A stretch of DNA of 27,343 bases. Source: a virus. The stretch lies in the IMG/VR virus record IMGVR_UViG_3300027896_000183, positions 1 through 27,343 of that record, one strand, 5' to 3'. The translations under genes were made by a program, and so were the position numbers. Positions 5-25,247 of this stretch are shown here, one piece after another (the stretch's first letter is position 1; the number at the start of each line of letters is the position of its first letter). The notes beneath the pieces were generated by a model. It worked only from the letters and a program-made list of their open reading frames with translations. It was not told the origin of the DNA and ran no database searches.

Positions 5-2869
5 ATGAAGATTGGCGACAAAGTCATCTTTGTGGATGCCTGGGGTTTTGCGGAACTGAACGAGTCTATAAAAGAAGCAGAGGAAGAGGACATCTTCAAA
101 GGTGCATCCCAGGAAGAACTTGAACAGCGGCCAGGCTGGCGAGAGGCGCAGGATGAAGAGTCGCGATGGCGGGCTGAGAGGGAAGAAAGACGACGCCGGA
201 TCGAACAGCGTCATATTACTCAGCCGGATTCCCGGGCTTTGATAGATCAATTCGTCAATGGCAGCCGGACCAAAGGCAAAGCCGCTTCATTGAGTGTTCA
301 AGGTAACGCGCTCTTCTCTTACGCGACACCGATCGCTGTGCGCTACAACGGCATAATTTACATGGTCAATCAAAAGTTCTCACGGACAACATCGAAGCAG
401 CAGTCTTACATCCGGATGGCAGCGCGGGGTACAGTGACTGCGGTTCCGGTGCCTGAGTTCAAGCGGATGCTTGATGAATTGGGTGTAGATTACGGATACA
501 GCCGGTTGCGCGAACATGTGAGCGAATCCCTGGCCTTCAAGCCAACTCTGTGGAAGATCCGTGAGAAAGACATCTTCAAAGGCGCAAGTAAGAAAGAACT
601 TGACCAGCGCAAGATGGAATGGGTTAAGGCATTGCATAAAACAGGCGTGCAAATCGATTATATTAAGGAACCAATTCCGGATCGGCTGAGCAGTTTCTGG
701 TATGAAGGTGATGTTGCTAAGGTTACCTATGCGACTCCTGAGGGCGAAGTGCGCTCGATCTCGATTGTAGCCAATGGAGATATCAGAGTGACATTTGTCG
801 GTGATGAACAAGACTATCAAAATTGGCGAGCAGTAGAAGAAGCAGAATCCAGGGGTTACACGGATGAGGATCTTGGTGAGGCTGACTACGAAGAGCCGCA
901 TGGTGAGTATCATGGGAAAGTCACCAATTGGGAAAACAACAATTGGTTTGAGTTGTTTTACGGCAGTTCCAAATGGCCCGGCCATGAAGAAGATATTATG
1001 GGTGACACATACGGCAGTTATGATGAAGCATTGGAAGCCGCGGTAGCCGCGGTCAAAGATGAGGAATTCTGGAGTCAGTTTAATGAATCAGTGAACGAGA
1101 AAGACATCTTCAAAGGTGCATCAAAAGAAGAGACTGCCAAAAGACAGGCTGAATGGCAAGCAACTCATCCCTTTATGTATCATGTGTTTGATTGGGATGA
1201 TCTCAACAATAAAACTGATGAATGGTTCGAGGGCCCGCATGCTTATGAGGATGCGGAAGAATATGCAAAGAAACTTGTCCGGTCAGGATACGAAAAAGTC
1301 AGGATCGAGAAACTCGAACATGAAGAGCAGGATCCGGGTGATATGGTTTGGTCTGGCGGTGGAAGTCCTGAAGACAAGGACTGGGGTGAGGACGACTACA
1401 CTCGGGAACAGGCTGAAGCGGATCTTAAAGCCGGACTCCAAGGTATTGAGGAATCAGTGAACGAGAAGGACAAAGATATCTTCAAAGGTGCCAGCCAGGC
1501 TGATTTGGTGGCCCGCGGGACGATTAAATATCTTCCTAAGCCGGGGCCAGTGGATTATCAGTTCCTTAAATATATTGACGTTGCGGATCCGGATGATAAG
1601 AACTGGAAGTTTGTCGGTGTCGGTGAACTTGTGAACTACGACCTCAGCGATGTTTACTTCTATAAAAATGATGAACCTGAGTTTAATATTTACTACGACA
1701 CTGAGACTATCATCCATGACAATATGGAGAAGAGCGACAAACTCACCGACGAGGTTCAGGTATTTACAGAAGAAGAAAAGGGAGATGAGGAAGACTGGAT
1801 AAAGTCCAAAGGCTGGGAGGTAGAATACTCAGGCTCCTCGAGTAATGAAGACCCGTCGTACTTCTGGTCAGACACAGATTTCAGTTACGTATCTTTCAGC
1901 GCACCTGACGACGACATTCGTGGGGGTGCGGTTATAAATTTCGCCGGCCGAGCGCCGGTGGTATATTTAGGGGATCTGAATGATGTTTTTAGCGCATTGC
2001 ATGCAAGCGATCCGGAGCAGGATATCGCAGATATATTTGGGTACACGCATTATGAGAATCTGATCCACGACATGAAGAAATACCGCGGGACGCTGACTCC
2101 GGAAGAAGAGCAGGCACCTCGGTCTCCGGAAAGGGTTCCTGGGCAATTGAACTGGACCTTTGGTACAAAGAACGCCGGCCCGGAATATTATGTCGAATCT
2201 AAGATGAATGAAGCGGACGACAGCATCTTTGTCGGCGCCTCAAATACAGAAGTCACAGCGCGGCGTGCAAGAGCCAAGCAGTTAGAGAAAGAGCGCAAGG
2301 CTAAGCGCAGCGCAGAGATGAAAGCATATTATGGGGCGATCCCTTATACATACGACGACATTATCAATCTTCCTCAATACAAGGCACTTGTGAAATTACC
2401 TGGGGTTGGGGATTTTACTACCAATCTTCAGAAGGCACACAGAACGTTGACATTTCAGTTGGCGTATACGTTAAAGCGGGATGGGACTGTGCGGACTGTG
2501 TATTATTACGTGTATGCGAATGGCTATCTCAGAGCAAAATCTTGGGGAGAGCAGAGCATTATCACGAAACGAGACCTGGCTACGACCATTGAAGCATACG
2601 GCGTATTGCTGGATATTATGAAAGATGTTCTGAAAAGAAAGATCGCTAAAGAGAAACGCAGGCCGCCGTTTGATACGAGTTATGAGTGTGAAGTCTGCGG
2701 GACGCCAGGATCATTGTTTCACAATGCGTACATCCGGTGGTCTTACTTGCCGCGGCACAACTACGGAACGCGGCTTGGCAACTTACATTTGAAGGACCCC
2801 AGGAATGCAGCAGAACTGGCTCGGCTTCAGGCCAAAGCAGTAGCAAATGGATCGGAGATAAAACTATGA
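5..2869 (+). CDS. Modular repeat protein, putative prohead core/internal head protein
   Basis: This is a 954-residue protein I do not recognise as a known family. It is built of unlike segments, each introduced by the short motif DIFKGAS, at residues 29, 189, 367 and 491, with a diverged SIFVGAS at 740. The motif is usually preceded by an acidic linker of the type (hydrophobic)-x-Glu-Ser, such as LNES, VSES, FNES, IEES and YVES. The segments between motifs differ in sequence and length (about 125-250 residues) and look like small alpha/beta domains. Near the C-terminus there is a CEVCG pair but no second Cys pair. The ATG lies four bases from the window edge, so its ribosome site is not visible; the N-terminus MKIGDKVIFVDAWG looks like a natural start. 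It ends in an ATGA overlap with the next gene. Linker resemblance to the protein at 5288 and to T4 gp21 cleavage sites suggests a processed core protein; this is inference. Confidence 0.6.
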   Translation: MKIGDKVIFVDAWGFAELNESIKEAEEEDIFKGASQEELEQRPGWREAQDEESRWRAEREERRRRIEQRHITQPDSRALIDQFVNGSRTKGKAASLSVQGNALFSYATPIAVRYNGIIYMVNQKFSRTTSKQQSYIRMAARGTVTAVPVPEFKRMLDELGVDYGYSRLREHVSESLAFKPTLWKIREKDIFKGASKKELDQRKMEWVKALHKTGVQIDYIKEPIPDRLSSFWYEGDVAKVTYATPEGEVRSISIVANGDIRVTFVGDEQDYQNWRAVEEAESRGYTDEDLGEADYEEPHGEYHGKVTNWENNNWFELFYGSSKWPGHEEDIMGDTYGSYDEALEAAVAAVKDEEFWSQFNESVNEKDIFKGASKEETAKRQAEWQATHPFMYHVFDWDDLNNKTDEWFEGPHAYEDAEEYAKKLVRSGYEKVRIEKLEHEEQDPGDMVWSGGGSPEDKDWGEDDYTREQAEADLKAGLQGIEESVNEKDKDIFKGASQADLVARGTIKYLPKPGPVDYQFLKYIDVADPDDKNWKFVGVGELVNYDLSDVYFYKNDEPEFNIYYDTETIIHDNMEKSDKLTDEVQVFTEEEKGDEEDWIKSKGWEVEYSGSSSNEDPSYFWSDTDFSYVSFSAPDDDIRGGAVINFAGRAPVVYLGDLNDVFSALHASDPEQDIADIFGYTHYENLIHDMKKYRGTLTPEEEQAPRSPERVPGQLNWTFGTKNAGPEYYVESKMNEADDSIFVGASNTEVTARRARAKQLEKERKAKRSAEMKAYYGAIPYTYDDIINLPQYKALVKLPGVGDFTTNLQKAHRTLTFQLAYTLKRDGTVRTVYYYVYANGYLRAKSWGEQSIITKRDLATTIEAYGVLLDIMKDVLKRKIAKEKRRPPFDTSYECEVCGTPGSLFHNAYIRWSYLPRHNYGTRLGNLHLKDPRNAAELARLQAKAVANGSEIKL

Positions 2870-3287: not shown

Positions 3288-3509
3288 ATGGCACATGGTA
3301 AGGTGAAATGGTTTTCGAATCAAAAGGGATATGGGTTCATCAGCCAGGACAGCGGTAAAGACGTGTTTGTGCACTTCAGCGGTATCGTGTCTGAAGGGTA
3401 CAAGAGCCTGAAAGAAGGCCAGGAAGTCGAATTCGAAGTTGTCCAGGGCACCAAGGGTGAACAGGCGGCAAACGTAAAGATCCTCAGCGAAGGAGTTAAG
3501 GCAGAATGA
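3288..3509 (+). CDS. Cold-shock domain protein (CspA family)
   Basis: A 73-residue single OB-fold cold-shock protein, full length for the family. The two nucleic-acid-binding motifs are intact: RNP1 as KGYGFI at residues 13-18 and RNP2 as VFVHF at 26-30, with the conserved GKVKWF start at 4-9. CspA proteins bind single-stranded RNA and DNA and melt RNA structure, acting as RNA chaperones or antiterminators. A strong ribosome site (aaaaggagaag) precedes the ATG. The last codon overlaps the next start in an ATGA arrangement. A phage-borne copy among structural genes may aid phage mRNA translation or antitermination; that role is inferred. Family assignment is secure. Confidence 0.96.
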
Positions 3510-5287: not shown

Positions 5288-7486
5288 ATGGATTTCCGGG
5301 GAATATTTAACCACCTGCAGGAAGATCTAAAGAAAGCTGAGAACGTAGTCGAACCTGTGGTCGAGAAGGAAATAGATTCTGTTGCTACTGAAGGCGATGG
5401 GAAAATAAAGCGCGGAAAAGAGATCGATTCTGTTGCCGTTGAAGAAGCAGAGATGGTCACCAAGAAGCGCAATCGCTGGGGCACGAAATGCCGCCGGAGG
5501 AACAGGATGCACGAACGTAGGCGTATAGCGAAGGATGACGCTGCGCATTTCAGTGATCTGATCACCCGGCTGACGAATGAGCGGGCTGCTCTGACTAAGA
5601 CTATGGCTATCTGTGAGAAAGCCGAAGACACCGCAAAGTTAGAAAGCATGCGCAAACGGGCCCACGAACTCGACTACAAGCTGCGCCGGCTGTCTGAGAA
5701 GGTTGACTCCAACATGAAATACTGCCCCGGCTGTGATCAGGCTACTCCGCATCAGGCCAATGGGACTTGTGTACAATGCGGCGCGACTAAAGAAGAACAG
5801 GCAGAACAGGAGAAATATCCCCGGGAAGGCGGCGGTGCAAACAATGAGTTCAATGAGTCCAAAGAGAAGAAGGCTGATGAACAAGAGATGTGCCGCTGCG
5901 GTAAAGCCAAAGTTGAAAAAGGCTATCAGCAATGCACCGCGTGTTTAGATAAAGCCGATGCCGAGAAATATCGGCATGAGAATGAATCTAAGGTGTCTGA
6001 GGAAATTGACTACGATGCAGTCGAGGCCGCGATCAAGAAGGCCGGCTTCGGTGATGCTGCAATGAACAATACCGAGGACTTCGAGAAGTCCCATAAAGGT
6101 ATCAAGGGTACCTCTGAATATATCAGCAAGTTCAAAGCATACATGAACAAACAGAAAGTCGGGGAATCCAAAGTTAACGAGGATGAAGGTATCAGTGGCG
6201 GTGCTACCCGGGCAAATGATGGGGATCGGGCCCAAGATCCTAATTTCGGCGCACCGGATCCGGTTGTCAAGCCGACTCCTGAACTGAAGAAAGAAGAGCC
6301 GATCAAACCAGGAACACCGGAGGAAGAAGAGATTCCGCCGGAAGGTGAGAAAGAATATCTCGGGAACAAAGGCGGTGAGATGTATTACTACTTCGTCATC
6401 GTCCCTGCGGAAGACGGAACCAAGGATCTGCAGATCCAGGACGCCAATGACGAAACAGTATTCAGCGCCAAAGAGAATCAAATAGATCCTTCCAACATGC
6501 AGGATTTCTTATGGAAGGGAATCCAGGAACTGCAGTTGTCGAACGTGGCAACAGAGATCGTGGATCAGTACCTGATGCCGGAAGAGGCACCTGAAGATAT
6601 AGAGAAAGAAGAAGGTATACCGGAAACCGGTGATGAGCAGGAGCAGACTGAAACTGAGAAGCCTAAGGAAAGCGGCGTGATCCCATCGCTTGGCGCTCCG
6701 GCATTCAAGAGTCACATGGGCGAATCTGTTATGGCCAGCCTGATGGAGAAGTACGGATTGACGGAAGCAGAAGTCCAAACTAAGGAATCTACGATGAAAG
6801 CGCTAATGGAGAAATTCGGATTGGTAGAATCCGCTGTTGAGAAGTTACTTGAGAAATACGGGCTGACCGAAGCAGAAGGCCCTGGAGTCAGAGCACCGAA
6901 GAACGTGGAGGATCTGGAGAAGGCAACCGGCGATAAGCCGCAGACTGCTGATGTCACACCTGGCGATGCGATGGATTCTGAAGTCCCAGCAGAGGCTCCG
7001 GCACCAGAACCTGGTATGGGTGCACCGGGGGCAATCGAACCGGCACCGGAAGGCGGAGAGCCTAAAGCAGAGGATATGACATCGCCTGAGTCAGCGCAAG
7101 CGGACCTCAGGATGAAGTATCCGGAAGAGCCCTACACCACGACAGCGCTCGCATACGCGGACAGTCTGATTGACGATCCTAAGGTGTACGGCGCGGTCCG
7201 GAATCTGAAATGGCAGGGTGTCTATGCGAACTCTGAGACATTCCTTAAACAGGCCAAAATCGTAGGGAATTACAATGAATTCAGTCCTGATATCGCAAAG
7301 CGGTTGGTTGACGCGGTTGGTGAAGGCGCGAAGTTCAGGCTTGCTCGGGAAGGCTCGGTATCAGTGTACTTCACGATCAGGGATCCAAACAAAAAGATGT
7401 CCCTGGATACACTCCGTGATCTGGTGCGGGCTGATGAGGCAGATGCAACAGGCAACGCTGGAGAAGCGCGGCTTTGGTGGGATTAA
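5288..7486 (+). CDS. Large modular zinc-ribbon protein, putative prohead core component
   Basis: A 732-residue mosaic not matching one known family. The N-terminus carries a repeated KEIDSVA element (27-33 and 44-50), a basic patch (59-80) and a coiled coil (about 86-140). Two zinc ribbons follow: C146/C149/C161/C164 and C202/C204/C216/C219. Acidic linkers contain FNES, ENES and VGES sites (190, 233, 293). A Pro/Glu-rich spacer leads to a small domain (about 356-430), then three short repeats of the form MEKYGLTEAE (480-530), another Pro/Glu spacer and a C-terminal alpha/beta domain (about 615-732). Linker style and zinc ribbons resemble the protease fusion at 8041 and the protein at 5, suggesting a common core compartment. 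The role is inferred from composition and from its position two genes before the protease. Confidence 0.65.
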   Translation: MDFRGIFNHLQEDLKKAENVVEPVVEKEIDSVATEGDGKIKRGKEIDSVAVEEAEMVTKKRNRWGTKCRRRNRMHERRRIAKDDAAHFSDLITRLTNERAALTKTMAICEKAEDTAKLESMRKRAHELDYKLRRLSEKVDSNMKYCPGCDQATPHQANGTCVQCGATKEEQAEQEKYPREGGGANNEFNESKEKKADEQEMCRCGKAKVEKGYQQCTACLDKADAEKYRHENESKVSEEIDYDAVEAAIKKAGFGDAAMNNTEDFEKSHKGIKGTSEYISKFKAYMNKQKVGESKVNEDEGISGGATRANDGDRAQDPNFGAPDPVVKPTPELKKEEPIKPGTPEEEEIPPEGEKEYLGNKGGEMYYYFVIVPAEDGTKDLQIQDANDETVFSAKENQIDPSNMQDFLWKGIQELQLSNVATEIVDQYLMPEEAPEDIEKEEGIPETGDEQEQTETEKPKESGVIPSLGAPAFKSHMGESVMASLMEKYGLTEAEVQTKESTMKALMEKFGLVESAVEKLLEKYGLTEAEGPGVRAPKNVEDLEKATGDKPQTADVTPGDAMDSEVPAEAPAPEPGMGAPGAIEPAPEGGEPKAEDMTSPESAQADLRMKYPEEPYTTTALAYADSLIDDPKVYGAVRNLKWQGVYANSETFLKQAKIVGNYNEFSPDIAKRLVDAVGEGAKFRLAREGSVSVYFTIRDPNKKMSLDTLRDLVRADEADATGNAGEARLWWD
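6725..6877 (+). repeat. Three imperfect MEKYGLTEAE-type coding repeats
   Basis: Within the 732-residue protein (residues 480-530) three consecutive units share the core LMEKYGLTEAE / LMEKFGLVESA / LLEKYGLTEAE. DNA is also similar between units 1 and 3 (gagaa.tacgg..tgac.gaagcagaa), consistent with tandem duplication followed by drift. Each unit ends in a hydrophobic-x-Glu step that could be cut by a gp21-type protease. Confidence 0.75.
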
Positions 7487-8040: not shown

Positions 8041-10146
8041 ATGGCAAAAACACAAATCATAGAATCATTCATCACTCAGGGTAAAATTCTCGAGCAAGCG
8101 GGAACGAACGATGCGATCTTGTGTCGAGCCAAATACCAGATCTGCTCGATCGGGGAAAAGAACCGGAACAACAGAGTTTATGAGAAGGCGGTCTGGGACA
8201 AGGTTCTTGCTGACCCTGACATCTCAGCCAAGCTGAAGAATAAATCTCTGTTCTTCCACGCAGAGCACCCAACGACGACTCAGAGCAATACCGAGAAAGT
8301 CGCCGGTGTGGTCACGAATATGGAACTGAGCGAGAACAAAGTCTACGCCATCATGGAAGTGCTTGATACTCCGTACGGCCGGATCGTAGACACGCTGCTT
8401 CGCGCCGGCTGCGGGATCGGCGTTTCAACCCGCGCTGACGGCGAACTTGAGGAAGCGCTTGATGAGGCTGGTGGTAAATACCAGCGCGTTATACCGGAAT
8501 CATACAGATTTGTAACGATCGACTTTACCGCGGATCCCAGCACCTTTGGATCTGAACTGCCACTGACTGTGGAACGGGATGTGACTAAGGTGATCAAGGG
8601 CGGCCTGGACGACAGCAAACTGGACCGGGACTTCGCGACAGTCCTGCTTGAGACGATGCATTCTCCTGAGGCTGTCTCATTGCTGGAATCGATCAAGCAC
8701 GACAAGCATCACGCTGGCTGCACATGCAAAGCATCAGAGAAGAAATGCGCATCCGGATGTCCGCATGCTCTTGAGAAAGAGGTCGAGTCGGATGGCGGCT
8801 CGAGTAGTATAAATGAAAAAGGCGGTGAGTGTGTCCGCTGCGGCGCTACTGCCGACCATCTTTATGCTGAGAAATACTGTGCAAAATGTGCCGGGAAGGT
8901 AGACAGTATCAATCGGGAACTTGATAAAGACGGGACTGGCCAAGACGCTGAGATGAATGAAGTGATCAAGAAGGTCGGAAGCAAATGGCAGGTTCAGTCT
9001 CACAAAGGCAAAAATCTCGGCACTTATGGCAGTGAAGCAGAGGCCAAGAAGAGACTCGGCCAGGTGGAGTTCTTCAAGCACAAGAACGAGAAGTACACGA
9101 CCAGTTCTGACAAGTCCGGCCAACCGGCGAACGCCAAGGCTGCATCCCGGGATGTCAGACGATCAGCAGCGCGGAATAAGATCAAGGTTACAGAGCAAGA
9201 GGTTCAGACCTGTCCGAAATGCGGCGACACTTTCAATGCTATCCGGCAAGGTTCAAATCCACACAGATGCAAATACGATTACCTGGCTACGGAAGGAGTT
9301 ATGGACGGCATGCATACAGGCGAAAAGGCTCAGAATTTCTTAATGGACAATTGGGATAAATTCATCGATCGCGACGACGCGGTTGTAAACCTGACGCGGA
9401 TATTCAAAATCGGAGAATCAGATGCTAAGAAACTTGTTGATTCATTGGAGAAGTCTAAAGGCAAAATCTCAGCAGCCGACGGCGCAATGAGCAACGAGAA
9501 GGCGTTACCTTCGGGCATCAACCCTCAATTGGACGAGATGTCAAAGAGGCTTGCGTCTGTTACTGCTGAGAGAAATCAACTGGTGGAGAACTATGGAAAA
9601 GACGCCATGGCTTTCACCAATCAAATAAAGGAACTCAAAGGGCAGATCGAGAAAGTCTATGGGCTTGTGCGGACTCACGAAGGTGCGATCATCCAGAAGG
9701 ATAAGGATATCGCAGCCTTGAAAGAACAAGTGGAGAAGTCAACTGAAGATAAAAGAGTTCTTGAAACAACTCACAAGCAGGCTGTCAAGCATATTCAAGA
9801 GAAGCAAGCAGCCGAAGTCAAGCGAATCACTGAGGAACGAGAGCAGGAAATAACGAAATTGAAGGAGTCCCAAGGTCGGGCACTCATTAAATTTTATGTT
9901 GGCGCTAAGACAAAGAGCATGGGACTTAGCCTACCTGAGTCGGTTCTAACACTTTTAGAATCCTGCAAAACGGTAGACGAAGTTGATGCTATGGTTAGGA
10001 AAAGTCAAAACGCTCTAAGGGAACACCTGGTACAATCTGCCGGCGTGGTATCCGAGATCGTTATTGAGTCACAATCTGACCCTAATCCGGTACTGGCTGA
10101 CATACGTAACAAAGTTGGTATTGCACTGAAGCATTTTGGAATCTAA
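8041..10146 (+). CDS. Prohead protease (T4 gp21-like) fused to zinc modules and scaffold-like coiled coil
   Basis: A 701-residue fusion. Residues 1-170 are a T4 gp21/herpesvirus-fold prohead protease: the NRNNRVY start (41-47), the catalytic-type His in AEHP (H76), the serine motif GIGVST (S129) and the following RFVTIDFTADPS block (156-167). T4 gp21 is only about 212 residues. Beyond it come a Cys-rich knot (227-240), a zinc ribbon (C264/C267/C280/C283), a small domain with KWQVQSHKGKNLGTY (315-329) found in other phage virion proteins, a CPKC...C finger (391-410), and a long coiled coil (about 497-612) resembling a gp22-type scaffold. I start at the ATG with AGGAGAGG before it rather than 30 codons upstream inside the previous gene. 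It sits immediately upstream of the capsid gene, as in T4. It should mature the prohead and remove its own core. Confidence 0.88.
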   Translation: MAKTQIIESFITQGKILEQAGTNDAILCRAKYQICSIGEKNRNNRVYEKAVWDKVLADPDISAKLKNKSLFFHAEHPTTTQSNTEKVAGVVTNMELSENKVYAIMEVLDTPYGRIVDTLLRAGCGIGVSTRADGELEEALDEAGGKYQRVIPESYRFVTIDFTADPSTFGSELPLTVERDVTKVIKGGLDDSKLDRDFATVLLETMHSPEAVSLLESIKHDKHHAGCTCKASEKKCASGCPHALEKEVESDGGSSSINEKGGECVRCGATADHLYAEKYCAKCAGKVDSINRELDKDGTGQDAEMNEVIKKVGSKWQVQSHKGKNLGTYGSEAEAKKRLGQVEFFKHKNEKYTTSSDKSGQPANAKAASRDVRRSAARNKIKVTEQEVQTCPKCGDTFNAIRQGSNPHRCKYDYLATEGVMDGMHTGEKAQNFLMDNWDKFIDRDDAVVNLTRIFKIGESDAKKLVDSLEKSKGKISAADGAMSNEKALPSGINPQLDEMSKRLASVTAERNQLVENYGKDAMAFTNQIKELKGQIEKVYGLVRTHEGAIIQKDKDIAALKEQVEKSTEDKRVLETTHKQAVKHIQEKQAAEVKRITEEREQEITKLKESQGRALIKFYVGAKTKSMGLSLPESVLTLLESCKTVDEVDAMVRKSQNALREHLVQSAGVVSEIVIESQSDPNPVLADIRNKVGIALKHFGI

Positions 10147-10172: not shown

Positions 10173-11639
10173 ATGTCAAAAGGTATTGAGAGTTTGGTAG
10201 AGTCGCGCTTGGCCGCTATGGCACAAGATCGCGATCGTCTTACCAAGGCATGGGGACCTCATATCAGTTCAGTAGAGTCTTATTTTGCAAAACAGGGTAA
10301 GAGCATCACTGAAAATGATAAGAGGAATATCGCCCGCTGTCTTGAGAACGCCCTGTTAGAAGGCGGCATCAAATCCAGATCAAGCATCTTTGAAACGACC
10401 GACTCCAGCGCGATCCAGTTCTTAGGGATCCAGTTGCCGGTTATCGCGGCCCTGCTTCCCAGTTTGGTTCTTAACAAACTGGCAGTTACTCAGGCCCTCG
10501 ATCGTAGATCCGGTGCTGTGTTTTATCTGGACGTGAAATACGGATCGAACAAAGGTTCTGTCTCTGCAGCGCAGAGCATGATCGCAGCAACGACTGGCCA
10601 TAACGCGACCATCGGTGGCCGTGAATATGCGTCCGTCCGCGTCAAGAATGAAGTTGTCACAGGATCAACCTCACCGTTTACCCTCGGGTATTACCCGGTG
10701 GTTTCTGGTTCGACGGTTATCGTGGACAATGTGACCGGCAACACGTTGACAGTTGTTTCCTCAAGCGGTGGTGTGGATGTTCTTGCTTCCTCACTGTCTG
10801 CTGGACACACTGGAACCGTCACGCTGGCAACCGGTGTTGTAACAATCGCTGGTGGTGGTTTAAGCAACGCAGGTACCGTCTCCTACCTGTATGATTGGCA
10901 GACCGGTGGCGCTGGTGGCGCAACTACAGCCAACGTCCCTGAAGTTAACATCGCGGTTACCGCTTCGACGATCACAGCCGAAGACTTCCCGCTCAAAGCA
11001 TTGTTTACTCTTGGTGCTGCAATCGACCTCGAGAAAGCACATGGCTTGAATCTGGAAGACGAGCTCGTGAAATATCTCGGCGGCGAAGTGAAATTCACCA
11101 TGGACCACCTGGGCATCGATCTGATCAACAATGCCTCCCAGGGTAGTGGTGCTGCAACTTCACCTGGTATCTACACTGCTACGCCGTCCGTTGGCGAAGC
11201 ATGGGTCTGGAAAAAGTATCAGTTCATCGACTTCGTGGAAAAAGCGAACGTCGCCATCATCCAGAAGACATTGCGTGCAGTTTGCAATTTCTTGGTTGTT
11301 GGTAACGATGCTGCAAGGTTGATCCGTCAGTTGGCACCGAACTTCGTGCCTGCGGCTGGATTGAACACCTTGGTACCCACCGGTCCTTACGAACTGGGTA
11401 CTTTGGACGGCCGTCTCGTGATTCACGATCCGTTACTCGGGAATACCGAGATCCTGTTCGGTTTCAAAGGCGACAACTACCTGTTCGCAGGTTTCTTGTT
11501 CGCTCCTTACATCCCGTTATTCGCAACGCCGACTCTGGTTACTGCAGACCTGAAAGCTCAGAAGGGCTTCCTCGCATCCGCAGGTTACAAAGTCGTGAAC
11601 GCGGGTATGTATACTCACGGAAATATTACCATAGTCTAA
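10173..11639 (+). CDS. Major capsid protein (T4 gp23-like, HK97 fold)
   Basis: A 488-residue capsid protein with a strong AAGGAG ribosome site. Hallmarks of the gp23 family are the block LPSLVLNKLAVTQALDRRSG (94-113) followed by AVFYLDVKYG, and the block FPLKALFTLGAAIDLEKAHG (271-290) leading into an E-loop/spine-helix-like region. The N-terminus is a helical propeptide; LLE|GG at residues 61-64 is a good prohead-protease site, close to the T4 gp23 cleavage after Glu65. Residues about 159-241 are a Thr/Val/Gly-rich beta insert before the conserved middle, likely a surface domain, related to one in the next gene. It follows the protease gene directly and precedes a strong hairpin. The product assembles the icosahedral shell. 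Confidence 0.93.
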   Translation: MSKGIESLVESRLAAMAQDRDRLTKAWGPHISSVESYFAKQGKSITENDKRNIARCLENALLEGGIKSRSSIFETTDSSAIQFLGIQLPVIAALLPSLVLNKLAVTQALDRRSGAVFYLDVKYGSNKGSVSAAQSMIAATTGHNATIGGREYASVRVKNEVVTGSTSPFTLGYYPVVSGSTVIVDNVTGNTLTVVSSSGGVDVLASSLSAGHTGTVTLATGVVTIAGGGLSNAGTVSYLYDWQTGGAGGATTANVPEVNIAVTASTITAEDFPLKALFTLGAAIDLEKAHGLNLEDELVKYLGGEVKFTMDHLGIDLINNASQGSGAATSPGIYTATPSVGEAWVWKKYQFIDFVEKANVAIIQKTLRAVCNFLVVGNDAARLIRQLAPNFVPAAGLNTLVPTGPYELGTLDGRLVIHDPLLGNTEILFGFKGDNYLFAGFLFAPYIPLFATPTLVTADLKAQKGFLASAGYKVVNAGMYTHGNITIV

Positions 11640-14488: not shown

Positions 14489-15448
14489 ATGAAGCGGTTT
14501 ATATGTTTGGTAGTGGCTGCAATGTTCTTGATGGGCCAAGCGGGTATCGCGAAAGCGTTCACCTTCGATGTGAAGAAGATGACAGCGACAGTTGAATATC
14601 AGAATCTGGACAAAGACATTGATTCTGTAGGTGCCGCGGCCAACTATGGCAAATCTTGGACAGACACAGTTGATGGCGACAGCAACTGGATGTATTCCAT
14701 CGGTGGCAACATTGCATACGAGATCAACGATGTGAATATGAAGGGCATGATGGCCAATATCGGCTACAACTTAAGCGACACTCTCCAACCGTACATCCTA
14801 TTAGGGACTATGGATCTGGATTTTACCCAGAAACTTGTTGGGTCATATAATGAGAACGATGACGGAGATCTCTACGGTGGATCTATGGATCTGCTTCAAT
14901 CTCACTTTGATTCTCAGATGTTTACCTACGGCTTTGGTGCCAAAGGTAACTTGATGGACTTCAGCAAGACTGATGACAAAGGCGTATCTGACGGCCTCGG
15001 TATCAAGGTCGGGTATGACTTTCGTTATTATATGGGTGCAAACGGACAAAATGACGGCATTGTGGCTCTGCCGACCAGCGACTATGGAATGGTGGTCGAT
15101 AACCGTACCAAGGCCAATTTCAACGAAATGGACGCAAGCCTTATAGCGAGCAAAGCGTTCAAGATGAAGAAAGTGGTCCAGACGGTTACGCCGTATGTCG
15201 GATACAAATTCAGCAAAGTCAATCTGAATATAAAGAACAGCGTGAATATCCCGCTTAAATACCACGAAGGCAAACATGGTATTTATCAGGAAGGTATCAA
15301 TGTTTCTGAAGAGCAGAATCTGACGAGCAGCACTCAAAATGCATTAGTGGGTGTTGGCACCAAGATCAATGCTAACTGGTCTGCATCTGCCGGCGCGGTA
15401 ATCGGGCAGGATAAAGGCTGGGTAGCAAGCGTGACCTACTCGTTCTAA
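14489..15448 (+). CDS. Outer-membrane beta-barrel protein with signal peptide
   Basis: A 319-residue exported protein. The N-terminus is a classical Sec signal peptide: MKR, a hydrophobic core through residue 18, and a likely AKA|FTF cut after residue 23. The mature part shows repeated amphipathic beta strands with Gly and aromatic girdle residues (MKGMMANIGYNLS, TPYVGYKFSKVNLNI) and ends in ASVTYSF with a terminal Phe, the signature recognised by the BAM machinery. It is therefore probably inserted in the outer membrane of a diderm host. A very strong ribosome site (aaaggaggag) drives it. Lambda Lom is a precedent for phage-coded outer-membrane proteins; superinfection exclusion or surface alteration is inferred. 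Confidence 0.85.
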   Translation: MKRFICLVVAAMFLMGQAGIAKAFTFDVKKMTATVEYQNLDKDIDSVGAAANYGKSWTDTVDGDSNWMYSIGGNIAYEINDVNMKGMMANIGYNLSDTLQPYILLGTMDLDFTQKLVGSYNENDDGDLYGGSMDLLQSHFDSQMFTYGFGAKGNLMDFSKTDDKGVSDGLGIKVGYDFRYYMGANGQNDGIVALPTSDYGMVVDNRTKANFNEMDASLIASKAFKMKKVVQTVTPYVGYKFSKVNLNIKNSVNIPLKYHEGKHGIYQEGINVSEEQNLTSSTQNALVGVGTKINANWSASAGAVIGQDKGWVASVTYSF

Positions 15449-19728: not shown

Positions 19729-20223
19729 ATGGGTTGTGATGAACGCAGGCATAATGATCTGGTAACCCTGAAAGAATACTTCCAAGCAAAGTTTGACGCT
19801 TTGGAACAGGCCCGTGCCTTGGCGGACAAAACGATGAACATCCGCCTTGAGAGCATGAACGAGTTCAGAGCACAAATCAAAGACCAGACTTCTACTTTTA
19901 TAACGAGGAATGAGCATGACATCGTTATGAAAGACATACAGGATCTTCGGGAGTCTCGAGCAGAACTGGCTGCAAACTTTGTTACAAAGCGTGAGCATGA
20001 CAGTGTCCTCGGGGAGATAGCCAGTCTCCGAGAGTCCCGGGCAGAATTGAGAGGCAAGGCGGATCAGAGCGCAGTGGTCTGGTCTATGATTATAGGAGGT
20101 ATGGGGATAATTATTGCTCTTGCTACTTTCTATACGTCCAGTGTGAAGATGCAGCAAATAGAAGACAAGTCATACGGTTATCAGGATTACCTGACTCACA
20201 TGAAGAGCGAGGCTTCTAAATGA
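19729..20223 (+). CDS. Coiled-coil protein with C-terminal membrane helix and internal repeat
   Basis: A 164-residue protein. The ATG at 19729 has GAGGTGG in front; an in-frame ATG four codons earlier overlaps the previous stop but lacks a ribosome site. Residues 10-50 include LVTLKEYFQAKFDALE and a MNEFRAQIKDQ segment, a pattern I have seen in small phage and prophage membrane proteins near lysis genes. Two 23-residue repeats (xTxxEHD...LRESRAEL) start at residues 58 and 85. Residues about 117-136 form a membrane helix (WSMIIGGMGIIIALATFY). A lysis or envelope role is possible but unproven. It ends in an ATGA overlap. Confidence 0.72.
   Translation: MGCDERRHNDLVTLKEYFQAKFDALEQARALADKTMNIRLESMNEFRAQIKDQTSTFITRNEHDIVMKDIQDLRESRAELAANFVTKREHDSVLGEIASLRESRAELRGKADQSAVVWSMIIGGMGIIIALATFYTSSVKMQQIEDKSYGYQDYLTHMKSEASK
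19900..20049 (+). repeat. Two coding repeats ending LRESRAEL
   Basis: Residues 58-80 and 85-107 of the membrane coiled-coil protein share the pattern (I/V)T-x-x-EHD-x-V-x-x-x-I-x-x-LRESRAEL, a 27-residue period. The shared DNA (gagcatgaca and gagtc.cg.gcagaa) points to a tandem duplication. Confidence 0.85.
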
Positions 20224-21912: not shown

Positions 21913-23526
21913 ATGAGTTTTTACCTGAGTCCAGGTGTTTACACCAAAGAAATAAATTTAAGCAACATCGTACCGACAGTCGCAACGACTACCGCTGCGC
22001 TTGTAGGATATTCACCAAAAGGTGATACAGTTCATATCAGGTTGATGACCAATACTCAGCAGTTCATCGCTGAATACGGCGAGCCGGTATTGGGTGAGCC
22101 TTTCCACTATGCCGCGTTGGCGTTCTTGGAGACCGGCAATCAACTTTGGTGCTATCGTGTACAGAACGGCGCATTATACGGTGGTATCAAGATCAAGACA
22201 TCAACAAGTCTTCAGGGCAACGCCTCAATCTCTGCGGGCGTAGCATCGCCTGACTTTGTATCGATCTCTGGCGAGGACAACCTGTTCAACGTCTACGGCG
22301 TGAATCCTGGCGTCTGGAACAACGGCCTGGGAGTTCAGGTTATCCGCACGACTGCAAACGATGCGATCTATGTGTTCCAGATCGACGTGTACGCAAAAGA
22401 TACGACCGGGACATTCCAGAAGGTTGAATCCTGGACAGTATCCAGAAAGCACCAGATCGATGGATATGGCAGACAGCAATACATGGAGACCGTCATCAAT
22501 GGATTCAGCAGTTACATAGTGGTTGCGGATAGCGCACTGGCGGATTCTACTCTGCCTAAAGCACAGACCAGCACGCTGCCGTTTGCGATGGGCGCTGATG
22601 GATCTGCGATCGCAGCCTCTCATTTGATGGCCGGCTGGGATATGTTCGCGAATCCTGAAGAGGTCGACATCAGACTTCTGGTCGAACCCGGGTTCTTCTC
22701 GACTTCAGTACAGGAGAAGATGAAGGAGATCGCGGAATCACGGAAAGACTGCATGGCTATCCTGAACATGGATCCCGCGCAGACCACATCCACCGCTTCA
22801 ATGATCACATGGAGAAACAGCACTCAGAATCTGAACTCCAGTTACGTAGCGCTGTATGCGCCTATGGTCCAGACATACGATCAGTGGAATTCGACATTGG
22901 TTGTCCTGCCAGGATCCGGCTATATTGCCGCGCAGTATGCGTACAACGATTACATCCGGAACGTCTGGAACGCTCCTGCTGGTTTGAACAGAGGCGTCCT
23001 GAACGTCCTGAATATCTGCGACCAGAATGGCAAACGGTTAGCATTCTCGCAGGGTGACAGAGACTCGCTGTATTCTGCGCAGATCAACCCGTTGCAGATC
23101 TGGCCGGGATCCGGAAATGTTATCTGGGGCCAGAAAACAGAAACCACAACGCCGTCCGCTTTGGACAGGGTCAATGTGCGTAGGTTGCTCATTATCCTTG
23201 AGAAAGCAATGGCGATATCATTAAGATCGTTCGTGTTCGAGCCGAATGATCCGAATACACGGTTCAGAGTCACCGCAATGCTGGATACGTATCTTGATAC
23301 ACTCAGTGGCGCTGGTGCATTCGAAACATCGTCCGCTGATACGAAGGGATATCAGGTAGTTTGCGACGAGACCAACAACACACCGGCGGTCATCGATCAG
23401 AACGAACTTCACGTTGATGTGTTCGTGAAACCGATCAAGATCGCGGAATTCATCCAGTTGCAGGTTATTGTCACGACAACCGGTGCTAACTTCAACGAGC
23501 TCATAGCAAGAGGTTTCAACCTGTAA
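21913..23526 (+). CDS. Tail sheath protein (T4 gp18-like)
   Basis: A 537-residue contractile tail sheath protein with a strong AAGGAGG ribosome site. The N-terminus FYLSPGVYTKEIN is diagnostic, followed by the TTTAALVGYSPKGDTV strand block and TNTQQFIAEYGEP. The C-terminal domain carries the typical AMAISLRSFVFEPNDPNTRF helix-strand and ends with ELHVDVFVKPIKIAEFIQLQ, the strand that links neighbouring sheath subunits. Contraction of the sheath drives the tube into the cell. The tube gene follows after 31 bases, the standard myovirus order. Sheath identity is secure. Confidence 0.96.
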   Translation: MSFYLSPGVYTKEINLSNIVPTVATTTAALVGYSPKGDTVHIRLMTNTQQFIAEYGEPVLGEPFHYAALAFLETGNQLWCYRVQNGALYGGIKIKTSTSLQGNASISAGVASPDFVSISGEDNLFNVYGVNPGVWNNGLGVQVIRTTANDAIYVFQIDVYAKDTTGTFQKVESWTVSRKHQIDGYGRQQYMETVINGFSSYIVVADSALADSTLPKAQTSTLPFAMGADGSAIAASHLMAGWDMFANPEEVDIRLLVEPGFFSTSVQEKMKEIAESRKDCMAILNMDPAQTTSTASMITWRNSTQNLNSSYVALYAPMVQTYDQWNSTLVVLPGSGYIAAQYAYNDYIRNVWNAPAGLNRGVLNVLNICDQNGKRLAFSQGDRDSLYSAQINPLQIWPGSGNVIWGQKTETTTPSALDRVNVRRLLIILEKAMAISLRSFVFEPNDPNTRFRVTAMLDTYLDTLSGAGAFETSSADTKGYQVVCDETNNTPAVIDQNELHVDVFVKPIKIAEFIQLQVIVTTTGANFNELIARGFNL

Positions 23527-24088: not shown

Positions 24089-24631
24089 ATGCCAGGACTT
24101 AGTGTACCTGTTGATTGGATCCTAGCAAAAGCACGTTTCCAGAGGAACTATCTCTGGGACGTGCTCTTGCCGGACATTAGCCCGACTATTGGTGGAATAC
24201 CGACATTCGGGCTGATCGGGTTTGGTTTAGCGCAACTTGTCCGCGCTGTGCAGTTCGGTGACTACAGCATGAACGACGCGAATACGATGCGTGTTGGCCC
24301 GTATCAGGCTAATTTTGCTGGGCTGCTGACGGTCGACAAGATCCGTATTACCTTTGTAAAAACAATGCCGGATGCTGTCTCAGCGTACATCAATGCGTGG
24401 AAAAATCTGATCGTTGACAGCCAGGGTTTGTTCCAGCCGAAAGCAAAGTATCAAAAGACTATGTACGTGCGGTTCCTGGACTCAACAGGAATTGCCTTGG
24501 GGCGGTATAAGTTGATCGGGTGTTTCCCGACGACATTCCCTAAATACAACCTGGACTATGAGAACAACAACGTGACGACTGTGCAGGTGGAGTTTGCAGT
24601 GGACAAGATCGAATATGAGTTTTTCGGATAG
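24089..24631 (+). CDS. Tail-tube paralogue, tube initiator-like (gp54/gp19 superfamily)
   Basis: A 180-residue protein that looks like a diverged copy of the tube gene: FQRNYLWDVLLPD near its start matches the tube protein's RPYLWEVVVP, AVQFGDYSMND replaces the STEIPGRSN turn, and it has the same middle strand-helix (DKIRITFVKTMPDAVSAYIN) and final beta strand (TVQVEFAVDKIEYEF). In T4, gp19 and the tube-initiator gp54 are structurally related and differ in this way. I infer a baseplate-proximal or terminal ring. A second tube subunit is an alternative. The ribosome site is GGAG. The homing endonuclease follows immediately. Confidence 0.75.
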   Translation: MPGLSVPVDWILAKARFQRNYLWDVLLPDISPTIGGIPTFGLIGFGLAQLVRAVQFGDYSMNDANTMRVGPYQANFAGLLTVDKIRITFVKTMPDAVSAYINAWKNLIVDSQGLFQPKAKYQKTMYVRFLDSTGIALGRYKLIGCFPTTFPKYNLDYENNNVTTVQVEFAVDKIEYEFFG

Positions 24632-24638
24632 GATATGT

Positions 24639-25247
24639 ATGAAATACGATAAAATTATCGATTACAAAATATGCGCATGTGGATGTGGCGAGATTATTTA
24701 TATTTCTGCTTATTATCCAGCAAAGCGTTTTGTTAATGGACATAACTGGTTGGGTGTTAAAAGACCACCTCGATCTGTTGAGTATAGGAAGAATATCAGC
24801 ATGGCACATTTAGGTAAAAAACGATCGCAGATTTTCTGTGACCATATGCGTAAAGTTAGTGCTGGTAAGCACCATTCTATCGAAACAAAGCAGAAAATGT
24901 CTGCAGCGCATAAGGGATCAAAGAGTCATCTTTGGGAAGGGGGTAAGACTTCTCTGGCTACGTGTATCCGGCATTTATTGGAAATGAAACAGTGGCGTGT
25001 ATCTATCTTTGAGCGTGATAACTATACTTGTATAAAATGTGGAAAACGTGGTGGAGAACTTCATCCGCATCATATAAAGAAGTTTTCTAATATCTTAGCC
25101 GATTTCTTACATGAATATTCTCAGTTTAGTCCATTAGAGGATAAAGAGACGTTAGTAAGATTAGCCATGACTTATAAACCCTTTTGGGAGATTAGCAACG
25201 GTACGACATTGTGCCGAAACTGCCATATGCTAACATTTAAACTATGA
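24639..25247 (+). mobile_element. Free-standing HNH homing endonuclease gene
   Basis: A 202-residue endonuclease, an inserted selfish gene. Start chosen at MKYDKII with AGGAT upstream. The N-terminus has a CACGCG metal-like knuckle (12-17), two NUMOD3-like helices follow (YRKNISMAHLGKK, about 49-61, and KQKMSAAHKGSKSH, about 84-97), then the HNH nuclease: FERDNYTCIKCG (C131, C134), LHPHHI (H144/H145) and LCRNCH (C192, C195). Base composition is visibly more AT-rich than in flanking genes, and codon choice differs, consistent with recent transfer. It sits between the tube paralogue and the next tail gene, and its end overlaps the following ATG by four bases. No intron boundary is visible in either neighbour, so it is free-standing. 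Confidence 0.93.

Follow-up and report, generated by a model that had tools for sequence, protein, structure and literature searches.

A repeated FKxA tag and candidate prohead protease sites in a probable head-cargo polyprotein of an uncultured T4-like phage

Results

A five-tag open reading frame precedes the head genes

The stretch of DNA analysed here (hereafter the window) comprises 27,343 bases of the genome of an uncultured T4-like phage. This fragment contains a T4-like head and tail gene cluster, with a tail sheath gene at 21913-23526. Its first gene is a long ORF in which a short peptide tag occurs five times; the core protein, the gp21-type protease and the gp23-type capsid protein are encoded downstream of it. 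The main features are:

5..2869, + strand: five-tag ORF (putative polyprotein), 954 aa from the first ATG; first gene of the window
5288..7486, + strand: prohead-core-like protein of 732 aa containing the linkers ESKVSE and ESKVNE
7076..7483, + strand: domain at the C-terminus of the core protein, also present in L068:3637-4245, a single leader-and-tag protein
8041..10146, + strand: gp21-type prohead protease (Peptidase_S77); the C-terminal part is conserved and the middle varies
10173..11639, + strand: gp23-type major capsid protein; [IVL]FE[TA]T is conserved near residue 75

Since the frame of the five-tag ORF is open up to the left contig end, the true start would lie beyond the contig; residue 1 as numbered here is probably not the true start, and the ORF is probably longer. 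Modules upstream of the first tag may be missing from the contig, the first 17 residues may belong to the end of another module, and a leader of this chain would lie past the contig end and is not visible in the window. The protease gene product matches PF03420 at 7e-8 and is the candidate enzyme for the linker cuts considered below. The L010 counterpart of the core protein is a 1236-aa protein that carries one tag.

The tag separates mutually unrelated modules

The original prediction placed the motif DIFKGAS at residues 29, 189, 367 and 491 of the ORF, with a diverged copy at 740; these positions were confirmed, the diverged copy reading SIFVGAS. At this protein's composition the expected number of DIFKGAS copies is 3.4e-6, and the motif is the sole 7-mer that occurs four times. 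A blind search for repeated 14-mers also ranked the tag repeat first in the window. Beyond the seven letters the copies share an Arg-ended tail, the whole reading I-F-K-G-A-S-x-x-[ED]-[LVT]-x-x-R:

89..130, + strand: tag 1, DIFKGASQEELEQR
569..610, + strand: tag 2, DIFKGASKKELDQR
1103..1144, + strand: tag 3, DIFKGASKEETAKR
1475..1516, + strand: tag 4, DIFKGASQADLVAR
2222..2263, + strand: tag 5, diverged, SIFVGASNTEVTAR

The codons vary between copies (Ser as TCC, AGT, TCA and AGC; Arg as CGG, CGC and AGA). Since synonymous codons differ, the tag is conserved as a peptide and not as DNA. Each tag opens a module:

89..565, + strand: module 1 (tag and domain); over 99 aa it shares 41% identity with the second module of L010:1408-3003
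566..1099, + strand: module 2, no relatives found
1100..1465, + strand: module 3, no relatives found
1466..2212, + strand: module 4; across 249 aa it shares 34.5% identity with the module that ends L059:2385-5243
2213..2866, + strand: module 5, no relatives found

The claim that the intervening domains are unrelated to each other held: with the first 22 residues removed, no pair of window modules was alike at E 1e-3. We consequently rejected the possibility that the tags are parts of one repeated domain. Module 1 weakly matches phrog_5643, a family of 79 positions. In INPHARED, module 1 gave weak matches only (best E 0.02) and module 3 none; the window modules had no match in NCBIfam, the five-tag ORF had none in Pfam, and PADLOC models gave 0 matches for the five window modules and three relatives. 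An AlphaFold model of the whole chain (mean pLDDT 41.9) was too poor for domain reading.

The tag is found on single proteins and multi-module chains of relatives

Relatives were obtained via the capsid protein (17 related loci) and via the tag pattern. A tag model built from 13 sequence segments, which as its seeds make up 13 of the 51 tags reported here, was used for a profile search of 19 records. Tags were found in three of these (window, 5; G003, 23; G005, 10) and not in the other 16; a pattern scan added the contig G020, with 15 model matches. The 53 model matches are thus the 38 in the 19 records and the 15 in G020, with G021 and G022 set aside as 13-bit matches; two of the 53 (G003:13857-13883, E 0.065, and G020:23734-23781) were left out, and a degenerate copy at residue 18 of a 643-aa ORF of G003 lies below threshold. 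This left 51 copies of the tag, [VI]F[KR]xA[SG]xx[DE]ΨxxR, in 31 ORFs on four IMG/VR contigs (the window, G003, G005 and G020). Single-tag ORFs account for 23 of the 31, the tag mostly standing behind a short amphipathic N-terminal leader, and the remaining eight, including the window ORF with its five, have two to six tags placed between unrelated modules. A profile search with the motif had been proposed for the original prediction, and it places the tag both on the relatives' single small proteins and between unrelated domains.

Each contig has one variant of the tag: FKAA in G003 and G020, FKPPT (FKPPTEEEL) in G005 and FKGAS in the window. The form VFKAA[SG]xxELxxR recurs in several ORFs of G003, and most single-tag proteins of G003 and G020 start MSLEKDITxIKKMVEA-xPVFKAA or near it. 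The ten single-tag ORFs of G005 start MKKLLESLLEQ-IFKPPTEEEL or near it; nine of them carry, by eye, leucine-rich-like SLEGAPxxVGGxFxC repeats, and Pfam found LRR in two of the three scanned. SLEGAPKYVGGxFxC repeats also mark paralogues of leader-tagged proteins in L058:2554-10841 and L012:12871-13662; by eye these form a diversified family of internal proteins.

No whole-length relative of the five-tag protein was found in INPHARED, and none by peptide patterns in IMG/VR. The tag itself was not found in INPHARED, a cultured-phage collection, at tblastn level, where short tag peptides gave chance-level matches only (E 2-9). A specificity control with EKDIFK[GARP]A returned 6 matches, all to unrelated proteins; DIFK[GARP]A-S-x-EE returned none, and a GTDB scan gave one match, to an unrelated protein. 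Scans with the VFKAA form matched 45 stretches, with repeated matches only in G003 and G020; the FKPA form matched 25, every one single; and the FKGA form matched at least 119. Among the 119 in-frame FKGA matches listed, a cut site was present at three, in one context ([LH][EL]ETLK[NH]TVFKGA-like), which we take to be a recombinase family. Two unrelated contigs, L096 VFKAATQDEVRKR and L155 IFKPASAEELARR, have by eye lone tag-like peptides with no cut site, which may be chance or distant dialects.

A Ψ-x-E motif precedes nearly every tag

All five [LIVMFY]xES motifs of the window protein (LNES 18, VSES 172, FNES 359, IEES 481 and YVES 729) lie upstream of tags, 6 to 15 residues before the tag F, in agreement with the hydrophobic-x-Glu-Ser linker initially described; at 20,000 positions drawn at random away from the tags the rate was 0. 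Every copy is preceded in addition by a second, nearer Ψ-x-E (IKE, IRE, VNE, VNE and MNE). The candidate cut sites are:

56..76, + strand: LNE|S and IKE|A before tag 1, on the T4 gp21 motif L/I-x-E (as described in PMC9026906)
518..529, + strand: VSE|S, Ψ-x-E-S pattern
557..565, + strand: IRE| directly before tag 2, Ψ-x-E pattern
1079..1099, + strand: FNE|S and VNE| before tag 3, Ψ-x-E pattern
1445..1465, + strand: IEE|S and VNE| before tag 4, Ψ-x-E pattern
2189..2212, + strand: YVE|S and MNE|A before tag 5, Ψ-x-E pattern

Over all 51 tags, [LIVMF]-x-E stands 3 to 10 residues before the F in 47 (92%) versus 15% of random positions in the same ORFs, and [LI]xE in 31. The corresponding [LIVMF]-x-D is found in that span at three tags versus 14% of random positions. 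Where the tag F lies beyond residue 40, the site is present in 21 of 24 cases. Because the first model contained upstream columns, the search was repeated with a model of the tag alone; the site was then present at 44 of 48 matches, and at 23 of 27 when seed sequences and G005 paralogues were removed. The residue after the site E is Ala in 29 cases, Gln in 10, Ser in 3, Lys in 3, Asp in 1 and Glu in 1. Thus, of the original claim about cutting, likely sites at the junctions stand; the site common to the relatives, however, is the Ψ-x-E directly before the tag, followed by Ala more often than Ser. The acidic position inside the tag varies (at F+7, E in 33 and D in 16), and since D often replaces E there, we dropped the idea that the tag is itself an additional, S-x-E-type cut site.

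T4 gp21 is described as cleaving after L/I-X-E, and Asp at the cut position of the IPIII leader as blocking processing and not targeting (PMC9026906). The specificity of the protease in this lineage can be inferred by analogy with T4 and from the capsid protein: all ten capsid proteins compared, including that of the window, have [IVL]FE[TA]T near the expected maturation cut. This motif is likely the maturation cut itself and would fit a protease of [LIV]-x-E specificity.

The four tags that lack an [LIVMF]xE site are all from G020, and one of them has TNE. No S77 protease was found in the G020 contig; homologues are present in G003 and G005. A site-less G020 tag, FAAASEEEVARR (L088:10852-12546), lies by eye inside an Api92-like (DUF1281) domain, and this tag-like stretch is the only one that apparently interrupts a known domain.

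Leader and tag are separate elements

Among 17 leader matches in G003 and G020, 13 have a tag directly behind and four do not; in G005 the figures are ten and one of 11. The five ORFs with a leader and no tag directly behind it include the start of the six-tag chain. A leader-like stretch begins six of the seven multi-tag ORFs outside the window, a set in which the 643-aa ORF of G003 starts at a contig edge; the exception is a 565-aa ORF of G020. One single-tag ORF of G020 has the tag and no leader. Since the leader occurs once per chain, and also without a tag, leader and tag are separate elements: one leader, many tags. L010:11569-12330 (254 aa), which has a leader and no tag directly behind it, has a TnsA-like endonuclease domain and adjoins the capsid gene; it may be a homing enzyme or else a nuclease that is packaged.

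An AlphaFold model of a single-tag protein, made with six aligned sequences, reached a mean pLDDT of 76.9. In this model the leader is a helix (4-16), the site lies at the break that ends the leader helix, and the tag forms a short helix followed by a long one. A separate, confidently modelled C-terminal domain follows, the same domain that ends the window core protein, where it has no tag. Fold searches with this model and a PDB sequence search gave nothing significant. The original prediction took the motif for a shared address tag. A common tag on each module is indeed present, but the packaging address is more likely to be the N-terminal amphipathic leader, also found without a tag; the tag would mark the junction and stay on the products.

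Modules recur with different neighbours

We cut the tagged ORFs at their sites into 54 modules and compared these all against all by blastp with 22 tag residues removed. Outside G005, only four pairs were alike at E 1e-3. Two join the window to G003, module 1 resembling the middle module of a three-tag chain and module 4 the last of a six-tag chain; the third joins a single-tag protein to the core-protein domain, and the fourth lies within G020. In the window-G003 alignments the likeness starts at or shortly after the tag and stops at the next linker, that of module 4 to the 953-aa L059:2385-5243 extending through the VES-linker after it. As judged from these alignments, a module evidently moves whole, delimited by tag and site, and stands beside different neighbours elsewhere. 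Pfam and PHROG scans covered 45 of the 54 modules (seven G005 paralogues and two pieces of the L010 core protein being left out) and matched 16 Pfam families, among them two LRR, one Api92-like and several zinc ribbons at weak scores. To our knowledge, none of the 16 belongs to the described set of polyvalent-protein domains (ART, PBECR, MPTase and the like).

Tagless relatives carry an ES-type linker in their core-region genes

Other contigs of the clade have no FKxA tag; around the protease they carry long mosaic genes in which the linker ES[KV][VLIM]xE recurs. It occurs 30 times in 212 genes versus 1.9 expected by shuffling (L013, a near copy of L014, is left out of this count), spread over 17 genes that are mostly long core-like or protease genes near the capsid gene. 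The 2186-aa core-region ORF L009:2-6559 opens with a histidine phosphatase domain (1-139), followed by a linker near residue 160 and, further on, a WGR domain; it has several ESKLNE-type linkers and no FKxA tag. In L015, DUF5661 (277-319) lies between linkers at about 247 and 326. The window has both marks together (ESVNEK-DIFKGAS and ESKMNEADD-SIFVGAS), which links the tagged and tagless groups. Another core-region ORF, L022:3879-8114 (1412 aa), has a cysteine cluster, CPHRKRGKPCGYCYVED, between ES linkers; by eye it recalls radical-SAM enzymes, and it has no Pfam match.

Discussion

We consider the five-tag ORF to be probably a prohead-core cargo polyprotein that would be packaged as a single chain, from which the prohead protease would release tagged internal proteins, and we put the probability of this at roughly 0.7. 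From the tag, the sites, the leader, the shuffling of modules and the gene neighbourhood we infer the following course of packaging, cutting, docking and ejection. Several unrelated small proteins would be translated as a single chain, and a single amphipathic N-terminal leader, as in the relatives and probably capsid-targeting, would bring this chain into the core of the forming head. The gp21-type prohead protease would cleave after Ψ-x-E in each linker and so free the modules as separate internal proteins, each beginning a few residues before its FKxA tag. The tag would remain on every product and probably dock it to a common partner in the head (on the core, DNA or portal side), and the docked products would finally be ejected into the host along with the DNA. 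The role of the tag after cutting is the weakest step of this reading; its uniformity within each phage suggests one common partner.

Several observations argue for the cargo polyprotein: the spread of the tag over 51 copies in 31 ORFs, with a site before 47 of the 51 and with the Ψ-x-E-S of the window protein only at tags; the gene order by the S77 protease and gp23, together with the tag in the L010 core protein; the occurrence of a core-protein domain as a single leader-site-tag protein; and the ES linkers that flank known domains, such as the histidine phosphatase, in the core-region genes of tagless relatives. T4 provides a precedent in its capsid targeting sequence (CTS) followed by L/I-x-E (PMC9026906, PMC5694885). 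The relatives' single-tag proteins and the recurring modules likewise support the original picture of separate small proteins strung on one chain, here in a head-core setting. Against the cargo polyprotein stand the four site-less tags of G020, one apparently inside a domain, in a contig where no protease was found, and the restriction of the tag to three of 19 records and its absence, at tblastn level, from the cultured-phage collection, the family being known from four contigs.

Could the chain instead remain uncut, as a multidomain head protein on which the tag is a short binding motif repeated along its length, like a polyvalent protein with several effectors? Some phage and plasmid multidomain proteins are described as packaged or transferred at full length (PMC5512222), and site-less tags do exist in G020. 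A mere binding motif, however, needs no Ψ-x-E before it, and here one precedes 92% of tags with its E hardly ever replaced by D, whereas the acidic positions within the tag vary between E and D; moreover, a protease gene lies in the same cluster. We therefore regard an uncut chain as unlikely. The repeats would be explained quite differently if shared junction DNA merely permitted module swaps, as a recombination device with no protein-level function. Modules do move between chains, but the synonymous differences between tags, with serine codons drawn from both codon groups, mean that the peptide was kept and the DNA was not, and such a device is highly improbable.

A third alternative keeps the cargo reading but assigns core targeting to the tag: each module would attach to the core through its own tag, and cutting would do no more than separate the modules. 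The tag is on every module, its variant is uniform per contig, as expected for one shared partner, and one single-tag ORF of G020 has it with no leader. Five ORFs, on the other hand, have a leader with no tag directly behind, and the T4 precedent, as described, places targeting in the leader that is removed (PMC9026906); we would wager against targeting by the tag, while taking it seriously. Returning to the cargo polyprotein with leader-borne targeting, a more far-reaching form of it, to which we give somewhat less than even odds, would have one leader carry a chain of up to six or more unrelated effectors into the prohead. The prohead protease would then cut at the tagged junctions, and the FKxA at the new N-termini would be a second, mature-stage signal that holds and lines up the proteins for ejection. 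Each lineage would have its own tag dialect and receptor, and modules would be traded between chains and single genes.

The nearest precedent is found in the T4 internal proteins and, in concept, in the polyvalent proteins (PMC12373910, PMC5512222). The T4 proteins IPI-IPIII and Alt are described as having in common only an N-terminal leader of 10-20 aa, ended by an L/I-x-E cut (PMC9026906), and IP1-3 as injected anti-restriction proteins that block GmrSD restriction enzymes (PMC12373910). As with these CTS proteins, a short leader is met on otherwise unrelated proteins in G003, G020 and G005, a [LIVMF]xE motif precedes the tags (a likeness at motif level), and an S77 protease and gp23 are encoded in the same phage. 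Unlike T4, which has one protein per gene, several modules are here fused per chain, and the FKxA tag follows each site and would stay on the product; the T4 sources, so far as excerpted here, describe no such tag. In phiKZ and SPN3US, whose ejection proteins have propeptides cut by gp175/gp245, many head proteins are likewise reported to be cut after x-x-E by a gp21-like protease (S/A-X-E, A-X-E; PMC9026906, PMC10052503). For SPN3US the cuts described release N-terminal propeptides (bar the protease's own) and not strings of modules; the site residues differ as well, being [LIVM]-x-E here. Polyvalent proteins resemble the chain in having several distinct domains per polypeptide, many of them predicted to be packaged in the head and injected, and their authors liken them to polyproteins (PMC5512222). 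Their release has been proposed to occur via embedded peptidase domains (PMC5512222), whereas none was found in the present chain and a separate prohead protease gene adjoins; nor do they share the repeated junction tag that here marks each module. The T4 core proteins gp22, gp67 and gp68 are likewise encoded beside gp21 and described as cut into several fragments. Those fragments are said mostly to leave the head, unlike the diverse modules seen here, some of which in relatives are of known enzyme families. We found no description of this layout in the open-licence literature.

T4-like phages disarm the defences of the host with injected proteins, which are recognised by their leader. If the cargo reading is true, the grammar of tag and site within long chains would make whole sets of unknown injected proteins readable from sequence alone, and injected proteins hidden in large hypothetical ORFs near head genes would become detectable. 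Head cargo would be loadable as a polyprotein, bringing many proteins into one head at once, and the tag would offer a handle for finding the partner inside the head.

Other genes of the window

The protease ORF is itself a mosaic: its S77 part and C-terminus are conserved and its middle is variable, with lengths from 611 to 1545 aa among relatives (window 8041-10146, L012:5356-9990 and L008:1815-4325). Also in the head region of the window, at 3288-3509, is a cold-shock gene (NCBIfam CspE/CspD-like, below cut-offs) that has counterparts in L013 and L014. Among the structural genes, 14489-15448 shows a weak likeness to an outer-membrane beta-barrel (PF13505, below cut-off). An HNH-like ORF at 24594-25247, which overlaps a structural gene and weakly matches part of IscB in NCBIfam, is possibly a homing endonuclease.
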